DNA of 64,000 nucleotides from Paenibacillus sp. MAEPY2 (GTDB lineage Bacteria; Bacillota; Bacilli; Paenibacillales; Paenibacillaceae), in contig NZ_AWUK01000010.1 of the NCBI RefSeq assembly GCF_000499205.1, positions 310,001 through 374,000 of the forward strand. Reading direction: 5' to 3'. Positions 26,960-35,213 of this stretch are shown here, one piece after another (position 1 is the first letter of the stretch; every line of letters starts with the position of its first letter). The translations under genes were made by a program, and so were the position numbers. Under the pieces are notes generated by a model. It saw only the letters and a list, made by a program, of their open reading frames with translations, ran no database searches and was not told the DNA's origin.

Positions 26960-28144
26960 TTAAGCCATCTGCTTTTGGAGAAGCTTCTCATTCCGCTCAA
27001 TCAGATCCCCGCGCTGGCTGGCGCAATCCAGGGAACGATACGGATCGGCCGGGGTATTAAAGGTGTAATCGACCAGTTTATCAAGCGTTGTAGTAGCTAC
27101 ATGACAGCGGGTATCACTGGACGCGTAATAGATGAAGACCACACCCTGTTCGTTGACTACTGCACCATTGCAAAAAATAACATTGGACACATCACCTACG
27201 CGCTCATCGTCATAAGGAGCAATGAAGTGTCCGCCCGGCTTGGCGATGATACGTGCCGGATCATTCAGATCCGTGGCGAACGTGTACAGCACATAACGCA
27301 GCCCAGCTGCAGTGTTGCGTACCCCGTGGGCAATGTGAATCCAGCCGCGATCCGTCTTGAGCGGAGCAGGACCCTGACCATTTTTCACTTCATATACCGT
27401 ATGATATTTGCGTTCATCGATAATGGTTTCTTCATCAATAACTGGATTCAGAATATCATCGCACAGACCAAAAGCGATCCCGCCACCGCTGCCAGTGGAG
27501 ATAAATCCATCTTGTGGACGTGTGTAGAACGCATATTTGCCATCCACGAATTCCGGGTGCAATACAACATTCCGCTGTTGAGGGGAGTTGGTCGTGATGT
27601 TGGGCAGACGCTCCCAGCTGACCAGATCACGCGTCCGGACAAGTCCGGCCTGGGCTACGGCACTGGATGTATCAAAAGCTGGAGCTTCCGGGTCTTTACG
27701 TTCTGAACAGTAGATACCGTAGATCCAGCCATCCTCGTGCTGTACCAATCGCATATCATACTGGTTGGTCTCGTCGGCATCGATATCTTCCCATACTAAT
27801 GGTTTGCCTTTGAAGCGGAATCCGTCAATGCCGTTATCACTCTCAGCCAGGGCAAAGATGGATTTGCGGTCCAAGCCCTCGGTTCGGATGACCATCACAT
27901 ATTTACCGTTGAAATAGATGGCCCCCGGATTAAGCGTAGCGTTAATGCCCAGACGCTCCATGAAGTGGGGATTTGTCGTTTCATCCAGATCAAATCTCCA
28001 GTGCAGCGGCACATGATGGCGTGTGATTACCGGATATCGGTACCGATCATAAACGCCATTGTAGAAGGTGGGATCAATTTCATTTTGACGCGTAAGCAGC
28101 TGCTCCTGTTGCTCCAATAATTCATTGTATTTGGGGTGTATCAT
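26960..28144 (-). CDS. GH130 phosphorylase, 4-O-beta-D-mannosyl-D-glucose phosphorylase-like
   Basis: 394 aa, a five-bladed propeller of family GH130. Landmarks are [18 protein letters not shown] and [14 protein letters not shown], with catalytic Asp D130 in NQYDMRLV, the position expected for mannosylglucose phosphorylases. The reaction is mannosyl-glucose plus phosphate to mannose 1-phosphate plus glucose, in the cytoplasm. There is no signal peptide. The gene starts 2 bases after the cellobiose 2-epimerase gene, the enzyme that makes its substrate from mannobiose, which supports subfamily 1. Confidence 0.87.
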
Positions 28145-28146
28145 CG

Positions 28147-29328
28147 TTATCCCATCCTCTCAATTAGTTCAATGCAGAATCGGCTATTGTGATACGGGCA
28201 TTTCCACGGTCCGGCGATTTCATTTTGATCCGGTGTACCGTTCCCGTCTACTGACCAGTACCACTCCCCGCCAGCACGGTGATCGATAATATGTTCCTTC
28301 GTATATGTCCACAAACGTTCCACTCTCTCCAGAAACAACGGATCACCTGTACGCTGATAGGCGTTGTAGAAGCCGACCATCGCCTCGGCCTGAACCCACC
28401 AAATGCGCGTCTCATCTACAAGGTCACCCTCTTGTTCATTCAACAGCGAACCGTCTGTATTCACGGCCACATTGGAAATGTTATAGGCAATATCCGTAAC
28501 CATTGCGGAATACTCCGGGTGTTGATCCAGACCTAGCACTTTCAATGTTTCGTCGATCAGCCAGCTGGCTTCAATGTCATGCCCGAACGAGCGCAGATTG
28601 ATAATGGAATTCCACTGTTTGTCGAAAAACACCCCGAGAAACTTCGTGTCTTTGTCATACACTCGTTCATACAAAATCCCAAGCAGGCGCTCCAGCGCCG
28701 CTTTCACCTGCGGATCCGGCCATACGCGGTAGAGCGTGGTGTAGGCCTCCAGCACATGAATATGCGTATTCATTGTGTAATCCGCAATCACACCATTTTC
28801 GCTCAGCATTTCATTGGGCTGTTCATTCCAGAAGCGGTCGAATTGTTCCTTGTATGCAGGTAATTCGGCATTCAGGCCTTGATCCTCAATCAGGGCAAAA
28901 AGCGTTTTCGCTAGTTCCAAAGCTGATGCATCCCCGGTTGCGCGATAGTATTCACTTAGTGAATACACTCCAAAGGATTGCGTATATACATGTTTACTTG
29001 TGTCCAGCGGTTCCCCTTTGGCATCCACCATCCAGTACAAGCCTCCATGCTCGGCATCCAGCACATGATCCGCAAGAAAACGGTAAGCGTGTTCGGCGTG
29101 ATCCCGCCAGATTTCATTTCCGGTAACGCGGTATGCTGCTGCAAAGGACCAGAGCTGCCGTGCCGTGGCGATGCCGCCTTTGGGAGCGAGGCGATCCACC
29201 TGAAGGTCATTGCCGACCCGGCCATAGAAGCCGCCGTTGTTATGATCTTTGAGGGCAGACCAGAATGGCAATATATGTGCTTCCCAGTGTTCCTTTATTT
29301 CCGTTTTGATGTCATTCGTGTAAGTCAT
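28147..29328 (-). CDS. Cellobiose 2-epimerase (AGE superfamily)
   Basis: A 393-aa (alpha/alpha)6-barrel enzyme. It starts with [24 protein letters not shown]; conserved histidines occur in [23 protein letters not shown] and [12 protein letters not shown], the catalytic layout of cellobiose 2-epimerases. It converts the reducing-end mannose of mannobiose to glucose. First gene of the leftward operon, downstream of the promoter at 29394-29422. N-acylglucosamine 2-epimerase is the alternative in the same superfamily, but the neighbouring mannosylglucose phosphorylase favours this assignment. Confidence 0.87.
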
Positions 29329-29361
29329 AAGTTAGGGCTCCTTCAAAGTACAGGATTCGAA

Positions 29362-29381
29362 TTAATTTAAGTTATCGTTAA
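29362..29381. promoter_or_regulatory. Operator arm, leftward mannan operon
   Basis: TTAATTTAAGTTATCGTTAA is the exact reverse complement of 29510-29529. It starts a few bases after the predicted leftward transcription start, so a bound repressor would block it. Confidence 0.7.
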
Positions 29382-29393
29382 CTTTATTAAATA

Positions 29394-29422
29394 ATATTAG
29401 TGTCGGATAATAGCATTGTCAA
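29394..29422 (-). promoter_or_regulatory. Sigma-A promoter, leftward (epimerase operon)
   Basis: On the minus strand TTGACA (29422-29417), 17-base spacer, TAATAT (29399-29394). Confidence 0.8.
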
Positions 29423-29467
29423 CGAGTCGTCAAAGAAAAACTTTTTGTTAAGTAATAAATAATTTAA

Positions 29468-29496
29468 TTGACAGGTAAGCGTTACCATAATAAAAT
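29468..29496 (+). promoter_or_regulatory. Sigma-A promoter, rightward (mannan ABC importer), with cre-like site in spacer
   Basis: TTGACA (29468-29473), 17-base spacer, TAAAAT (29491-29496). The spacer holds the palindrome GGTAAGCGTTACC (29474-29486), one mismatch from the CcpA cre consensus, placed where binding would shut the promoter. Confidence 0.75.
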
Positions 29497-29509
29497 TCAT
29501 TTTGTAACC

Positions 29510-29529
29510 TTAACGATAACTTAAATTAA
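29510..29529. promoter_or_regulatory. Operator arm, rightward mannan operon
   Basis: TTAACGATAACTTAAATTAA, the perfect inverted copy of 29362-29381, lies at about +7 to +26 of the rightward transcript. Confidence 0.7.
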
Positions 29530-29551
29530 CTTAGAAAAGGGGTAGAATCAA

Positions 29552-30865
29552 TTGAGAAAAAACAAAGGTTGGATACTGCTGCTTACCATGCTACTCATTA
29601 CTTCTCTGCTCGCAGCTTGCTCTTCCGGCGGTGGCTCTTCACAGGCAGGAGAGGAAATTAGCACAGATCCGGCGGACATCAAGGGTGAAATTACCGTCCT
29701 TACGCAGCGTACAGATATTGTGGATACCGTGTTCAAAGACTATGCTGCGGAGTTCAATAAGGAATACCCGGATGTCAAAGTAAACTTTCAGGCACTGGCC
29801 GACTATGAGGGACAAGTGAAGATCCGTATGAGCACCAAGGATTACGGCGATGTGCTGATGATCCCCACCAGCGTACCAATTGCGGACATTCCGGATTTTT
29901 TTGAACCGCTGGGCACGTACGATGAGCTGAAAGATAAGTACACAGGCATTGAGGAACGTATGGTGGACGGTCAGGTATATGGCATTCCAACGGTTATTAC
30001 GTTCTCCGGTATCATTTATAACAAACAGGTATTCAAAGATGCTGGCATTGCGGAAGTTCCGAAAACACCCGAGCAATTCCAGGCTGCGCTTCAGTTGGTC
30101 AAAGATAATACAGATGCGGTTCCACTGTACACCAACTATGCATCCGGCTGGGCTTTGACACAATGGGAAGCGGATCTGCCGACGGTTGCAGGCAGTGTCG
30201 ACTACGTTAACATTGATCAACCGAATACGGATGAGAACTTTGTGGCTGGCAAGCCGCACTACGAGTTGTACAAAGTGCTTTATGATGCAGCCAAAAATGG
30301 CTTGATCGAGAAAGATCCAACGACAACCGACTGGGAAAGCTCCAAGGCGGATCTGGCGAATGGCAAAATTGCAACGATGGCACTAGGATCATGGGCAATT
30401 ACACAAATTCAAGGTTTGACGGATACACCGGATAACATCGGATTCTTGCCATTCCCTACGAATGCAAGTGATGTGGTCGTTCCGCTGGCGGCAGACTATA
30501 ACATTGGCATGAACGTAAACAGCGAGAACAAACCTGCTGCGAAAGCCTGGATTGACTGGTTCCTGGCCAAATCGAACTACGCGGTTGAGCAAGGTGGAGG
30601 CATGAGCGCAGACAAAAATGCTGAATTGCCACCCATTCTGGACCAGTACAAAGATGTTCAATTTTCCACACTGACTCCAGCCAAAGAAGGACAGGAAGGT
30701 CTGGTTGACAAAATCGACAACGAAGGCGAGATCGGTCTCTGGCAGCCTGACTTTAAGAAACGCATTATCGAAGCAGGCATCGGTAACCGCAGCGAATCGT
30801 ATGACGACATCATGAAGGACCTGAATGACAAATGGGTGAAAGCGCGGGCAGAACTCGCGAAATAA
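29552..30865 (+). CDS. Sugar ABC importer, lipoprotein solute-binding subunit (mannan locus)
   Basis: 437 aa, starting at TTG with AAAGGGG upstream. A lipoprotein signal ends in SLLAACSSGGG, so the mature protein is anchored by a diacylglyceryl cysteine. The rest is a family 1 extracellular sugar-binding protein (GEITVLTQRTDIVD, YGIPTVITFSGIIYNKQVF, MALGSWAI). By position it binds manno-oligosaccharides released outside the cell. First gene of the rightward operon; two permease genes follow but no ATPase. Confidence 0.9.
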   Translation: MRKNKGWILLLTMLLITSLLAACSSGGGSSQAGEEISTDPADIKGEITVLTQRTDIVDTVFKDYAAEFNKEYPDVKVNFQALADYEGQVKIRMSTKDYGDVLMIPTSVPIADIPDFFEPLGTYDELKDKYTGIEERMVDGQVYGIPTVITFSGIIYNKQVFKDAGIAEVPKTPEQFQAALQLVKDNTDAVPLYTNYASGWALTQWEADLPTVAGSVDYVNIDQPNTDENFVAGKPHYELYKVLYDAAKNGLIEKDPTTTDWESSKADLANGKIATMALGSWAITQIQGLTDTPDNIGFLPFPTNASDVVVPLAADYNIGMNVNSENKPAAKAWIDWFLAKSNYAVEQGGGMSADKNAELPPILDQYKDVQFSTLTPAKEGQEGLVDKIDNEGEIGLWQPDFKKRIIEAGIGNRSESYDDIMKDLNDKWVKARAELAK

Positions 30866-30882
30866 GCCAGTTACGGCGGATG

Positions 30883-30918
30883 GGTCGGCCAATAAAGACA
30901 CGATATATGTGGCCGACC
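30883..30918 (+). other. Intercistronic hairpin after the binding-protein gene
   Basis: A perfect 9-bp stem GGTCGGCCA/TGGCCGACC with an 18-base loop and no T-run. A smaller hairpin (AAGCGG/CCGCTT, 30974-30990) follows just before the next ribosome binding site. Such structures commonly protect the 3' end of binding-protein mRNA so that it outnumbers the permease message. Confidence 0.6.
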
Positions 30919-31005
30919 ACCGTTGACATGCAGCGAAATACCGGGTACTGGATGGAGTCTTCTTTTGATATAAAAGCGGCAGAACCGCTTGGAGGTGTGG
31001 AGAGC

Positions 31006-31893
31006 ATGAAATACTTGAAGATTTCGAATTGGGGCTATTCAGCGCAACGCATATTTATTATCTGTGCCTTCTCAATGATTCCGCTGGCACTGCTGTTCAC
31101 GTTTGCTTATTTACCGGTCATTAACATGTTCAAATACAGCTTCACGGATTGGAACGGATATAGCAAAAGGTTTGATTATGTCGGATTTGAAAACTACACG
31201 CGGATATTCAGTGACCCTGAGTATTTTAAAGTGTTTATTGTCAGTCTGTATTATTTTGTGGCTACCTTCGTACAAATGGGTCTGGCCCTCTACTTTGCAA
31301 CAATTCTGAGCTTCAAAATCCGCGGCAAAAACTTTTTCAAAGGCATATTGTTCTTCCCTTATCTGCTGAATGGCGTGGCCATCGGATTTATCTTCCTCTT
31401 TTTCTTCAAACCAGATGGCACCCTCGACACACTTATGCAGGCCGTAGGGCTTGGACAATACACCCAGCTCTGGCTGGGGAATCCGAACATTATTAACGTG
31501 TCGCTCGCGGGCGCATCGGTATGGAGATACATGGGCTTTAACTTCATCATCTTCTTGGGTGCGATCTCATCCATTCAGAAGGATGTTTATGAAGCTTCGG
31601 ATATTGACGGGGCCAATCGCTGGCAGCAGTTCCGGCATATCATCCTGCCGAGTATTACGCGCATCCTGCAGCTCAACCTGATTTTGGCGATTAGCGGCGC
31701 AATCAGTGCGTTCGATATTCCATATATTATGACCGATGGTTCCAATGGCAGTGAGACATTTGTCATTCAGACCGTTCACTTGGCATTCAAGTACGGCAAG
31801 CTGGGCTTGGCATCGGCGATGGCTGTTGTGCTGCTGTTTATTGTCATTCTTGTTACGCTGGTTCAGCGTGTCACCATGAAAGGGGAGGAATGA
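31006..31893 (+). CDS. Sugar ABC importer permease 1 (mannan locus)
   Basis: A 295-aa inner-membrane permease with six hydrophobic segments, MalF type. The EAA loop is EASDIDGANRWQQFRHIILP, the docking site for the ATPase. The ATG at 31006 follows GGAGGTG. An in-frame upstream extension to 30832 was rejected because it overlaps the previous gene and the hairpin. It works with the next permease and an ATPase encoded elsewhere. Confidence 0.9.
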   Translation: MKYLKISNWGYSAQRIFIICAFSMIPLALLFTFAYLPVINMFKYSFTDWNGYSKRFDYVGFENYTRIFSDPEYFKVFIVSLYYFVATFVQMGLALYFATILSFKIRGKNFFKGILFFPYLLNGVAIGFIFLFFFKPDGTLDTLMQAVGLGQYTQLWLGNPNIINVSLAGASVWRYMGFNFIIFLGAISSIQKDVYEASDIDGANRWQQFRHIILPSITRILQLNLILAISGAISAFDIPYIMTDGSNGSETFVIQTVHLAFKYGKLGLASAMAVVLLFIVILVTLVQRVTMKGEE

Positions 31894-32729
31894 ACGTGCA
31901 CCAATTCAAATACACCCTTGCGAGCATCTTCAAATATGCTTCACTCATTCTCGCCGCGTTCATTGCGTTGGTACCCATCGTTGTGGTGCTGTTTGCATCG
32001 CTCAAAACCAATGCCGAATATGCGACCAGCAGTCCGCTTGCCCCACCTGCCAACTGGCTGAACTTTGCGAACTATACGAAGGCTTTTGTGGACGGCAACA
32101 TGCTGGTCGGTTTCAAAAATACAATTATCATCCTGATCATCTCCATCGTGGGTGCCACTTTAACAGGTTCCATGATCGCGTATGTGCTGGATCGTTTCAA
32201 ATTTAAGGGCAAAAAAATTATGGTCGCAGCTTTCCTGCTCGCTACCCTCATTCCGAGTGTCACAACACAGGTAGCCACTTTCCAGATCATCAACGCACTC
32301 GACCTGTTCAACACCCGCTGGGCGGCCATTGTAATGTACCTGGGTACAGATATCATTGCGGTGTATATTTTCCTGCAATTTCTGGGCTCCATCTCCAACG
32401 CACTGGATGAATCCGCCATGCTGGATGGCGCATCCTACTTCACGATCTATTGGAGAATCATTCTGCCACTGCTGAAACCGGCGATTGTAACGGTCATTAT
32501 CGTGAAGGGCGTCAACATCTACAACGACTTCTACACGCCGTTCCTGTACATGCCCAAGACAGACTTGCAGGTCATATCCACGGCTCTTTTCAAATTCAAG
32601 GGACCGTTCGGATCACAGTGGGAGGTTATCAGCGCAGGGATTATGATCGCCATCATTCCAACGATGATCATTTTCCTGCTGCTACAGAAGTACATCTACA
32701 ACGGCTTCGCACAAGGCTCGGTTAAATAA
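31890..32729 (+). CDS. Sugar ABC importer permease 2 (mannan locus)
   Basis: A 279-aa permease of MalG type with six hydrophobic segments and the EAA loop (DESAMLDGASYFTIYWRIILP). It overlaps the preceding permease by four bases (ATGA), indicating translational coupling. The C-terminus YIYNGFAQGSVK is the standard ending of this family. No ATP-binding subunit follows, so a shared MsmX/UgpC-type ATPase elsewhere is implied. Confidence 0.9.
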   Translation: MNVHQFKYTLASIFKYASLILAAFIALVPIVVVLFASLKTNAEYATSSPLAPPANWLNFANYTKAFVDGNMLVGFKNTIIILIISIVGATLTGSMIAYVLDRFKFKGKKIMVAAFLLATLIPSVTTQVATFQIINALDLFNTRWAAIVMYLGTDIIAVYIFLQFLGSISNALDESAMLDGASYFTIYWRIILPLLKPAIVTVIIVKGVNIYNDFYTPFLYMPKTDLQVISTALFKFKGPFGSQWEVISAGIMIAIIPTMIIFLLLQKYIYNGFAQGSVK

Positions 32730-32762
32730 AAAACGAAGGCTATATGAAATTAATATGAAAAT

Positions 32763-32947
32763 ACACAGGAACGGAGAGGGCAGAAAAAACCTGGAGAAAC
32801 GGAGTGTTCGCCTAAAAGCTTTCTGAAAGAAAGCTCGCTCCGTAAGCATATGCTATCACCGGATTTTACCCTTTTCATGAGGGAATCAAAAAATCTGGGG
32901 ATAACAGCGATCGGAAGGTTGTTCTGCCATCGGAGTGGACTCGTGTA
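32763..32947. repeat. Intergenic repeat, copy A (about 185 bp)
   Basis: It shares long stretches with copy B at 34072-34216: the GAAACGGAGTGTTCGC region, GGATTTTACCC...GGGAATCAAAAAATCTGG, GGGATAAC, GCGATCGGAAG and the end GTGGACTCGTGTAA. It carries an extra 40-base hairpin, with AGCTTTCT/AGAAAGCT nested in ACGGAG/CTCCGT. It lies just upstream of the GH130 gene. Confidence 0.75.
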
Positions 32948-32998
32948 AGTTTAACAGTTTATTTCATATAGCCTACCACCGAAGGGAGAAATGAAACG

Positions 32999-34036
32999 AT
33001 GACAGTTGTCGATACGAAACACGTACACATTGTTGGGGATGCATTGCCGAATATACCTTGGGAGGATAAACCGGAGGGAACAGAAGGACCGGTCTGGAGA
33101 CACTCAGCCAACCCAGTCGTGCCGCGTAATCCGGTCAAGGGAGTTGCCCGTATTTTCAACAGTGCAGTCGTTCCTTATGAAGGGAAATTCATCGGGGTAT
33201 TCCGCGCCGAAACGATTAACGGACGTCCGCACCTGCATATGGGATCGAGTGAGGATGGGCTGGAGTGGAGTATCGAAGAGGAACGCATTGCCTTTGTGGA
33301 TGAAAACGGCGATGCCTTCATGCCGAATTATGCATATGACCCACGTCTGGTAAAAGTGGAAGATACGTATTACATCATCTGGTGTACCGATTTCTACGGC
33401 GCTGCACTTGGTTTGGCGAAAACCGACGATTTCAAAACGTTTGTGCGTCTCGAAAACCCGATGCTGCCGTTCAACCGCAATGGCGTGTTGTTTCCACGTA
33501 AAATCAATGATAACTATGTGATGTTGTCCAGACCAAGCGACAGCGGACATACGCCGTTCGGGGACATTTTCCTCAGTGAAAGCCCGGATCTTGTGTATTG
33601 GGGCAAACACCGTCATGTCATGAGCAAAGGCGGTCAAGGCTGGTGGCAATCGGTCAAAATTGGCGGCGGTCCTGCTCCGATTGAAACATCCGAAGGTTGG
33701 CTGATGTTCTACCACGGTGTAACTGGTACGTGCAATGGTTTTGTTTATAGCATGGGTGCGGTCATTCTGGATCTGGATGAGCCATCAAAAGTAAAATATC
33801 GTTCCTCTAACTTCGTGCTGACACCGGAAAAATGGTATGAGGAGCAAGGCTTTGTGGACAATGTCATCTTCCCGTGCGCCACATTGCATGATGCGGAGAC
33901 AGGACGGATCGCCATCTATTATGGCGCAGCCGACACCTACGTTGGTGTGGCGTATACAACCGTCGAAGAGATCGTGAACTACGTGATTGAGACAGACGAA
34001 GTCATTGCCGGAGACCGTGAGGAAGGAAAGCTGTAA
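32999..34036 (+). CDS. GH130 beta-mannoside phosphorylase (second copy)
   Basis: 345 aa, another GH130 propeller but clearly different from the one at 26960. It opens GDALPNIPWEDKPEGTEGPV, typical of the subfamily that phosphorolyses beta-1,4-manno-oligosaccharides (or mannosyl-GlcNAc). The catalytic Asp is D114 in NYAYDPRLVKV. There is no signal peptide, so it acts in the cytoplasm and yields mannose 1-phosphate. GGGAGA precedes the ATG. It is flanked on both sides by copies of the same intergenic repeat and sits between the importer and the GH113 gene. Confidence 0.85.
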   Translation: MTVVDTKHVHIVGDALPNIPWEDKPEGTEGPVWRHSANPVVPRNPVKGVARIFNSAVVPYEGKFIGVFRAETINGRPHLHMGSSEDGLEWSIEEERIAFVDENGDAFMPNYAYDPRLVKVEDTYYIIWCTDFYGAALGLAKTDDFKTFVRLENPMLPFNRNGVLFPRKINDNYVMLSRPSDSGHTPFGDIFLSESPDLVYWGKHRHVMSKGGQGWWQSVKIGGGPAPIETSEGWLMFYHGVTGTCNGFVYSMGAVILDLDEPSKVKYRSSNFVLTPEKWYEEQGFVDNVIFPCATLHDAETGRIAIYYGAADTYVGVAYTTVEEIVNYVIETDEVIAGDREEGKL

Positions 34037-34071
34037 TTGAAGTGAAACAATTTTAAATAAAGCTGAAATTC

Positions 34072-34216
34072 ACACAAAAACGGGGAGTGCAGAACCGATC
34101 TGAAGAAACGAAGTGTTCGCATTTATCCTCGGATTTTCCCTTTCATCAGGGAATCAAAAAAATCTGGGGATAACGGCGATCGGAAGATGGTACTGCAATC
34201 GTAGTTGGACGTGTAA
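34072..34216. repeat. Intergenic repeat, copy B (about 145 bp)
   Basis: Imperfect copy of 32763-32947 lacking the 40-base internal hairpin. Shared blocks include AATCTGGGGATAAC and GCGATCGGAAG. It occupies almost the whole spacer before the GH113 gene. Confidence 0.75.
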
Positions 34217-34265
34217 CATTCGGTCATTCATTTTACATTAAGTGAAAAAGGAGCATTGCGGAACA

Positions 34266-35213
34266 ATGCATATGGAATACATCAAGGGATTTACATTTGG
34301 CTGGATGAGCGGCAGGGGAGACTTCCGCAAGCCAGAAGCGAAAGAATCCTTGCGTCTGATGGCTGAACGCACAGGCAGTTCGCATGTTATTTTTGCATTG
34401 GCGGCGCAGCAGGATCATCCGCAGGCTGTAGAGGTCAAATATGAGGGTGAACATATGGTGGAAGACGATGAATTGGTGGACATGATACGCTACGCCCGTA
34501 CGCTCGGACTGCGGGTCATTCTGAAACCAACTGTCAATTGCACCGATGGCACATGGCGGGCACACATTAACTTCTTTGATATCGATGTGCCGTGTGAGCC
34601 GAAATGGAAGGACTGGTTCCGAAGTTATACCACGTATCAGAAGCACTATGCATCCATTGCAGAGCGCGAGAATTGCGAGATGTTTATTGTAGGTTGTGAG
34701 ATGGTGCAGTCCGAGCGCCGGGATCAGGAATGGCGTGAAGTGATTGCGGGAGTACGTGAAGTGTACACGGGTCTCGTATCGTACAATACGGACAAGTACC
34801 AGGAAGGACATGTGAAATGGTGGGATGCCGTGGACGTCATCTCGTCGAGTGGTTACTATCCCATCGGAGACTGGGAAGCGCAGCTGGATCGGATTGAACA
34901 GGTCATTGCACCCTATGGCAAACCTTTCTTCTTCGCGGAAGCGGGTTGCCCTAGCCGCAGCGGATCGGCGCAGGTACCGAACGACTGGGGGTTAACAGGT
35001 GAGGTCAGCGCGCAAGAACAGGAGCAGTTCTATGAAGCCATGTTCCGTCATGCAAGTAAGCGGGAGTGGGTACGCGGGTTTGGACTGTGGGACTGGAGTG
35101 CCCATCTGCATCAGGAGCAGGATGCCCTGAGCAACGATGGATACGGCGTTTATGGTAAACCAGCGGAGAAAATCATTCGCCGTTTCTATGAAGGCATTGC
35201 AGTGGAAGTCTGA
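34266..35213 (+). CDS. GH113 family beta-mannanase/mannosidase, cytoplasmic
   Basis: A 315-aa (beta/alpha)8 barrel. It opens YIKGFTFGWMSGRGDF. Acid/base Glu E145 lies in FIVGCEM and nucleophile E225 in PFFFAEAG, the GH113 arrangement in clan GH-A. The strand LRVILKPTVNCTDGTW is also diagnostic. There is no signal peptide, so it should cut imported manno-oligosaccharides inside the cell to feed the epimerase and phosphorylases. The start at ATG 34266 lies 12 bases after AAAGGAG; ATG 34272 is an alternative. Last gene of the rightward locus. Confidence 0.87.
   Translation: MHMEYIKGFTFGWMSGRGDFRKPEAKESLRLMAERTGSSHVIFALAAQQDHPQAVEVKYEGEHMVEDDELVDMIRYARTLGLRVILKPTVNCTDGTWRAHINFFDIDVPCEPKWKDWFRSYTTYQKHYASIAERENCEMFIVGCEMVQSERRDQEWREVIAGVREVYTGLVSYNTDKYQEGHVKWWDAVDVISSSGYYPIGDWEAQLDRIEQVIAPYGKPFFFAEAGCPSRSGSAQVPNDWGLTGEVSAQEQEQFYEAMFRHASKREWVRGFGLWDWSAHLHQEQDALSNDGYGVYGKPAEKIIRRFYEGIAVEV

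Follow-up and report, generated by a model that had tools for sequence, protein, structure and literature searches.

The spacers on either side of a GH130 gene in the window (the whole stretch of 64,000 nucleotides analysed here) hold a two-layer repeat, made of an inner structured core and an outer pair of IS630-family terminal inverted repeats (TIRs). Most sampled genomes of its own family, the Paenibacillaceae, have the core, as do some from other families of the order. The TIR layer, among the matches listed, was found on about half of the copies of one type (type I) tested in the genus. We consider it probable (roughly 60%) that the repeat is a co-transcribed intercistronic RNA element, which was captured between IS630 ends by one lineage and then spread, and whose molecular function would lie in processing, stability or polarity. 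An earlier note on the window had offered an RNA element and a dispersed repeat as alternatives, and each half finds support. Dispersal is borne out, together with IS630-type ends. The marks of an RNA element are covariation, sense orientation in co-directional gene pairs and an excess of G-U over A-C exceptions, to which the tools contribute in part.

The surrounding genes (window positions 26960-35213) encode, according to Pfam, two GH130 proteins, a GlcNAc 2-epimerase-family protein, a solute-binding protein and a permease of the ABC type, and a GH113 protein, and likely form a cluster for utilisation of beta-mannan or mannosides as putative substrates. Blocks common to both spacers and kept in order, described in the earlier note, were recovered in an alignment of the two copies (A and B, Table 1), and the extra nested hairpin noted in copy A is present and measures roughly 40 nt. 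With up to three mismatches allowed, the window contains the shared block ATCTGGGGAYAACNGCGATCGGAA twice, compared with a mean of 0.00 in 100 shuffles, and the spacers fold better than their shuffled versions (z -3.71 and -3.86; 0 of 200 shuffles were equally good). The limits first given for the spacers, 32763-32947 and 34072-34216, proved too short: alignment with other copies places TIRs beyond them, and the coordinates were therefore extended outward, to 32740-32971 and about 34048-34241.

Table 1. Repeat copies and adjoining genes in the window.
Feature	Position	Strand	Evidence
ABC transporter permease gene, upstream of copy A	31890..32729	+	Pfam PF00528; ORF
Copy A, long form, type I element, TIR to TIR (CTATATGAAAT...ATTTCATATAG)	32740..32971	+	Covariance model R1 match 32760-32950, E 4.8e-20
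Copy A left TIR, inferred TA target dinucleotide within	32740..32758	+	Sequence reading; same family TIR on IS630 transposons
Copy A optional extra hairpin module (TAAAAGCTTTCTGAAAGAAAGCTCG...AAGCATATGC), limits approximate	32813..32853	+	39-column gap in A/B alignment; module census
Copy A right TIR	32953..32971	-	Sequence reading and family TIR
GH130 gene between copies A and B	32999..34036	+	Pfam PF04041, E 1.3e-80
Copy B, short form, type I, decayed TIRs, limits approximate	34048..34241	+	Alignment with other copies
Copy B hairpin core per R1	34069..34218	+	R1 match, E 5.1e-36
GH113 gene, following copy B; start codon possibly further in	34242..35213	+	Pfam PF22612, E 9.7e-138

A simple local duplication was rejected as the origin of the pair. 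When copy B served as the query, for which 40 of 105 candidates were scored, 45 BLAST matches were listed and copy A was only the 41st of them, a low rank that argues against A and B being a recent local duplication. Further copies and compensatory changes, both raised in the earlier note as tests of a local duplication, were found in large numbers. The window gave no Rfam match at the gathering score and, at E up to 5, one chance-level match outside the repeats. A simple consensus scan found no terminator-like site on either strand and no promoter-like site inside either window copy.

The repeat is abundant in its own genome (7.5 Mb), where a 21-base block matched 98 times with up to three mismatches and the reversed pattern 0 times. 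A covariance model, R1, built from 27 copies with 152 positions and 39 pairs, gave 110 rows in the same genome (150 of 2825 candidates scored); 10 of them repeated a palindrome already counted, on its reverse strand, and were removed, leaving 100 distinct places when both types of the repeat are counted. The types differ in letters: type I, to which both window copies belong, reads TTTATC...GATAAC, and type II reads TTTGTC...GACAAC. Complete elements measure about 195 bp in the short form and about 236 bp in the long form.

In draws from wider groups, 10 to 20 candidates were scored per genome, so that the following counts show presence and not copy number. R1 matched 160 of 197 genomes of the Paenibacillaceae, including all 23 genus genomes drawn, and 101 of 149 genomes of the order, with four families represented. 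In a draw from the phylum, 5 of 299 genomes matched, all in the own family, and none of the 294 genomes outside it did. A pattern scan identified at least 117 named loci, all titled Paenibacillus save one; the pattern used to retrieve them lies within the 3' arm, and their conservation there is thus partly by choice. The exception, labelled Bacillus sp. FJAT-27264 (L129), carries the element, and this label may be wrong, since the other titles are Paenibacillus. Among 72,556 plasmid records a single one matched (a 2.7 Mb replicon of P. cellulosilyticus, over 45% of the query), and the repeat was found in none of 50,697 phage records. We found no earlier description of it in the open-access literature on Paenibacillus repeats, MITEs, IS630 and structured RNAs (a coverage that leaves out most subscription journals), and a term search of the available part of a 2024 MITE review (PMC10969869) gave no mention of Paenibacillus or IS630.

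The core, of about 150 nt, consists of a predicted long hairpin with conserved internal loops and a mini-hairpin at a junction. The arms fall into subtypes, between which both sides change together. Distant copies have the apical core in common (CTGNAGNAGCG.AGCGTYCGCCTTTRTC ... GAYAACAGCGRYCGGAAG); their outer arms diverge in sequence and remain complementary. RNAalifold, applied to 34 copies from the own genome, predicted 38 pairs, 11 of them with double changes and one of them split between A-U (17 copies) and G-C (15 copies). A MAFFT alignment of 27 copies (A4), which is independent of structure, contained double changes at 11 pairs and in 37 cells, versus 4.0 and 9.6 in shuffles; for further pair types, A4 gave no excess over shuffles (331 of 500). 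The larger alignment A6 was fitted to the R1 model; its 108 matches come from 100 named loci, 17 of the 117 listed having been left out. Among the matches listed, 93.5% of its cells are paired, versus 82.1% after shuffling and 35-45% with one side slid; double changes affect 26 of 39 pairs (19.4 in shuffles) and 464 cells (120.7 in shuffles), and several pairs occur in five or six pair types.

Where pairs are not canonical, G-U exceeds A-C. The counts are 37 versus 8 in A4, a single column pair providing 19 of the 37 G-U, and 144 versus 60 in A6, or 89 versus 60 without one column pair, among the matches listed. The excess is partly built in, because both RNAalifold and the covariance model favour G-U. 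With this qualification, it suggests that the sense RNA is the strand that folds, as G-U over A-C would then be expected. The strong covariation of the core, as read from the alignments, supports a conserved secondary structure.

The mini-hairpin at the junction has the form GC-GNA-GC. Its inner pair is almost constant and only the outer pair varies much: in 152 distinct contexts, the latter was G-C in 120, A-U in 20, G-U in 11 and A-C in 1. Both pairs could form in 98% of cases, versus 87% in shuffles; the search demanded a G..A loop, and the loop type is therefore no evidence. A hammerhead-like reading, suggested by CUGANGA beside GAA, was dropped because the junction has no third long stem. 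The optional hairpin module of about 40 nt was found after the mini-hairpin in 22 contexts, after TTCGCC in 34, before the mini-hairpin in 3 and elsewhere in 7. In this census 77 rows without a core within 140 bases downstream were left unclassed, many of them being taken as the reverse strand of the palindromic module. All three cases before the mini-hairpin are from P. daejeonensis (L122, L132 and L145), so that one module can occupy three positions within one fold.

The outer layer was identified by its relation to transposons. Copies in the own genome end in a 19-nt TIR with the left consensus CTATATAARTTGAACTAAA and its complement on the right. A search with the inverted repeat alone led to a truncated transposase gene of the own genome that lies beside this sequence (L192, G000:C11:157226). 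This IS630-family gene is the sole match to the transposase start in that genome, and its first 78 residues, used as a query, gave some match in 12 of 75 genus genomes. In the related genomes reached in this way, complete IS630-family transposons of about 1.17 kb close with the same TIR. Both ends are exact in L224 and L231, L220 and L222 have one difference at one end, and L221 has four differences at the right end. The NCBIfam model for IS630 transposases (NF033545) was matched above its cut-off by each of the two frames of L221 and by the second one of L224, and DDE_3 was matched by the second frames. The repeat shares the 19-nt ends and the genus with these insertion sequences and differs from them in having no transposase gene itself; it is short and present in many copies. 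Because the TIRs are shared with IS630 transposons, the copies show most of the features of an IS630-type MITE, and those in the window answer to the definition of an IS630-family MITE, clean target duplication excepted.

IS630 elements use TA targets, often CTAG, and the ends read C-TA...TA-G in several copies. In alignments with empty sites, the flanks were off by a few bases, two 'empty' relatives at one site kept TIR remnants, and predicted pre-insertion sites agreed only approximately with real empty sites. In view of this approximate agreement, we infer the TA duplication from the IS630 ends.

The two spacers beside the GH130 gene were compared by eye in 30 genus genomes, the own included (the best 30 of 48 matching among 60). 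At the copy A spacer, 11 genomes have a full element (6 long and 5 short), 4 a remnant and 15 none; at the copy B spacer, 9 have a full or nearly full element, 4 a remnant and 16 none, and 1 is not syntenic. In spacers without copy A, the permease stop and the GH130 start can be as little as 23 bases apart (L162), as would be expected within a single transcription unit. Copy A is flanked by CGAAGG repeats, and some of the element-less sites may be deletions between them. Since the search of the own genome met only a broken transposase gene, mobility there may now be low.

The IS630 ends are not distributed evenly between the two types. In a test that demanded ends on both sides with up to 6 mismatches, and used a reversed TIR as control, 33 of 67 named type I copies were positive (control 5), versus 2 of 35 named type II copies (control 0), among the matches listed in both cases. 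Two genomes of another genus, G013 and G029, chosen from the R1 phylum-draw list, gave 1 of 13 type II copies (control 0) and 1 of 10 copies with type I letters (control 2), or 2 of 23 copies overall (control 2). Thus, most of the tested copies that are of type II or from the other genus have the core but no IS630 ends, and the ends follow the genus more than the letters, as copies with type I letters in the other genus also do without them. One copy from another genus (L283) has clear IS630-like ends.

For the analysis of orientation, neighbour genes were called with a codon-usage script. Among copies lying between co-directional genes, 58 of 66 are in sense in the named set (one palindrome duplicate removed; among the matches listed), 49 of 55 in the own genome (type I 39 to 6, type II 10 to 0; 16 of the 100 places were left out as partial, low-scoring or at a contig edge) and 14 of 16 in the two other-genus genomes (10 reverse-strand rows dropped). 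The remaining copies are divergent (16), convergent (5), overlapping (6) or at edges (14) in the named set, among the matches listed; the corresponding numbers are 9, 8, 7 and 5 in the own genome, and 4, 2, 1 and 0 in the other-genus set.

A palindrome inserting at random should be in sense half of the time. The pooled count of 121 of 137, with 16 exceptions, gives p values of 2e-21 against 0.5, 5e-10 against 0.65 and 0.001 against 0.78, although orthologous sites and tandem copies common to the sets mean that it overstates independence. The values 0.65 and 0.78 were assumed for partial and complete coupling to replication, the latter on the supposition that 78% of gene pairs are on the leading strand. 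Taken separately, the sets give p values against 0.78 of about 0.03 (named), about 0.03 (own) and 0.28 (other-genus), and own type I copies alone give 0.11. Own type I copies of at least 160 bits (n=24) are already oriented 13 to 1 in sense. In nine genomes, 56 of 73 copies lie on the presumed leading strand, with the origin assumed at base 1 and only the highest-scoring copies counted. The orientation bias suggests that an RNA copy of the repeat, and not the DNA alone, does something.

In bacteria, MITEs are generally regarded as selfish DNA whose effects are incidental. The repeat could likewise be only a MITE, i.e., a selfish IS630-derived palindrome, with arms kept for the transposase or a cruciform and an orientation bias left by the purging of insertions that harm transcription. 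The TIRs shared with autonomous IS630 elements and the presence/absence polymorphism speak for this, and strong base pairing is usual in MITEs according to the available parts of Croucher (2011; PMC3049150). We nevertheless think it rather unlikely. IS630 ends are found on half of the named type I copies listed but hardly on type II or other-genus copies, the covariation spans the core as well as the arms, G-U exceptions outnumber A-C, and the type II copies of the own genome are all in sense.

If the repeat is instead a co-transcribed RNA element, several steps can be proposed. Its IS630 ends would let the transposase of IS630 relatives move it in trans, in the manner of a MITE. Transcribed within an operon mRNA, it would fold and act as an RNA in cis, most likely as a folded joint between genes of the polycistronic message that a protein or RNase could recognise. 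The outcome would be a changed stability or expression on one side of the joint relative to the other. As the conserved loops are asymmetric, the antisense fold would probably escape recognition by the RNase or RNA-binding protein, and wrong-way insertions would be removed by selection or never kept.

For the 49 sense copies of the own genome, the preceding gene ends at a median of 68 nt before the core and the next gene starts at a median of 50 nt past it, at no more than 100 nt in 38 cases. We compared 20 of 47 downstream genes with NCBIfam; they were hand-picked with a preference for complete genes with a recognised start, and may be biased accordingly. Fifteen matched above the cut-off (pyrimidine-nucleoside phosphorylase, RF2, arabinose isomerase, cytidine deaminase, PcrA, Cof-type phosphatase, PurC, CarA, Upp, XylB, ArgB, FabZ, MurI, EF-P and HtpG), 2 more weakly and 3 not at all, and the 20 genes have no pathway in common. 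The gene argB is immediately preceded by a copy in 5 of 5 genomes of the genus, including the own, versus 1 of 25 other-genus genomes with loci compared, which indicates that this site persists in the genus genomes compared and undergoes turnover from one genus to another.

A stable hairpin between operon genes could also reduce the expression of the genes behind it, as an intercistronic attenuator or terminator. This is improbable, given that neither window copy has a terminator-like site on either strand and that several copies precede genes such as those for RF2 or EF-P. A riboswitch or leader that senses a ligand or tRNA and controls the gene after it, as the upstream placement and the conserved internal loops might suggest, is very improbable for an element with about 100 places in one genome, no terminator-like platform in the window copies and sites that turn over between genera, and a riboswitch or regulon was rejected as the main reading because the 20 hand-picked downstream genes lack a common pathway.

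By analogy, the repeat may work like the BOX, RUP, ERIC and Correia elements; it would be nearest to RUP by the proposed IS630 connection and to BOX by the optional module. The following comparisons are by description and rely on the available parts of Croucher (2011; PMC3049150). RUP of Streptococcus pneumoniae is a short MITE-like repeat, for which transposition in trans by IS630-Spn1 has been proposed; like the Paenibacillus repeat, it is short, interspersed and IS630-linked. In the pneumococcus, BOX, RUP and SPRITE are all found in excess between convergent genes, and for RUP no such sense bias is reported in those parts, whereas the Paenibacillus repeat is mostly in sense in co-directional pairs and its core spans genera mostly without IS ends. 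BOX, with 86 copies in two contexts of Table 1 of that paper, has an optional internal boxB module, is predicted to fold upon transcription and differs in length at one site between strains. The Paenibacillus repeat resembles it in its many copies and its modularity, the module of about 40 nt being present or absent among the full elements of the copy A spacer. BOX differs in its excess between convergent genes and in TIRs that are said to resemble those of ISSpn2.

ERIC and Correia elements, as cited in the same source (Croucher, 2011; PMC3049150), are MITEs that are active as RNA when transcribed. Within operons, ERIC in one of its orientations may make the upstream mRNA less stable by way of a putative RNase E site, and RNase III acts on Correia elements. 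Both have other hosts and other sequences than the Paenibacillus repeat. ERIC is a precedent for orientation-dependent RNase action (PMC3049150), which for the Paenibacillus repeat is only proposed.

A bolder extension of the RNA-element reading, which we put forward tentatively and with more doubt than belief, is that the core represents an undescribed cis-acting RNA class at the level of the order. With a dedicated protein or RNase partner, it might tune operon genes at about a hundred sites per genome. Captured between IS630 ends in one Paenibacillus lineage, it might have become a self-spreading regulatory part that was acquired, kept in sense and lost again. A core that occurs with and without transposon ends, has a compensated fold across many species and is mostly oriented with the genes offers a testable case of a mobile element spreading a functional RNA part through operons.

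The RNA-element reading would also supply a missing annotation for about 100 structured spacers in the own genome without an Rfam family (as checked for the window), some of them at contig ends. Several copies are located at the ends of contigs such as C14, C25, C28, C37, C38, C6 and C7, and the repeat may thus break assemblies. Another spacer of the own genome (L252, G000:C4:111379-111788) holds one copy of each type at a distance of about 100 bp, a hint that copies cluster or insert into one another. In P. xylanexedens (L058:1234-1749), P. cellulosilyticus (L086:7222-7854) and G029 (L297:2522-3196), three copies stand in tandem, and the spacer between them is repeated as well.
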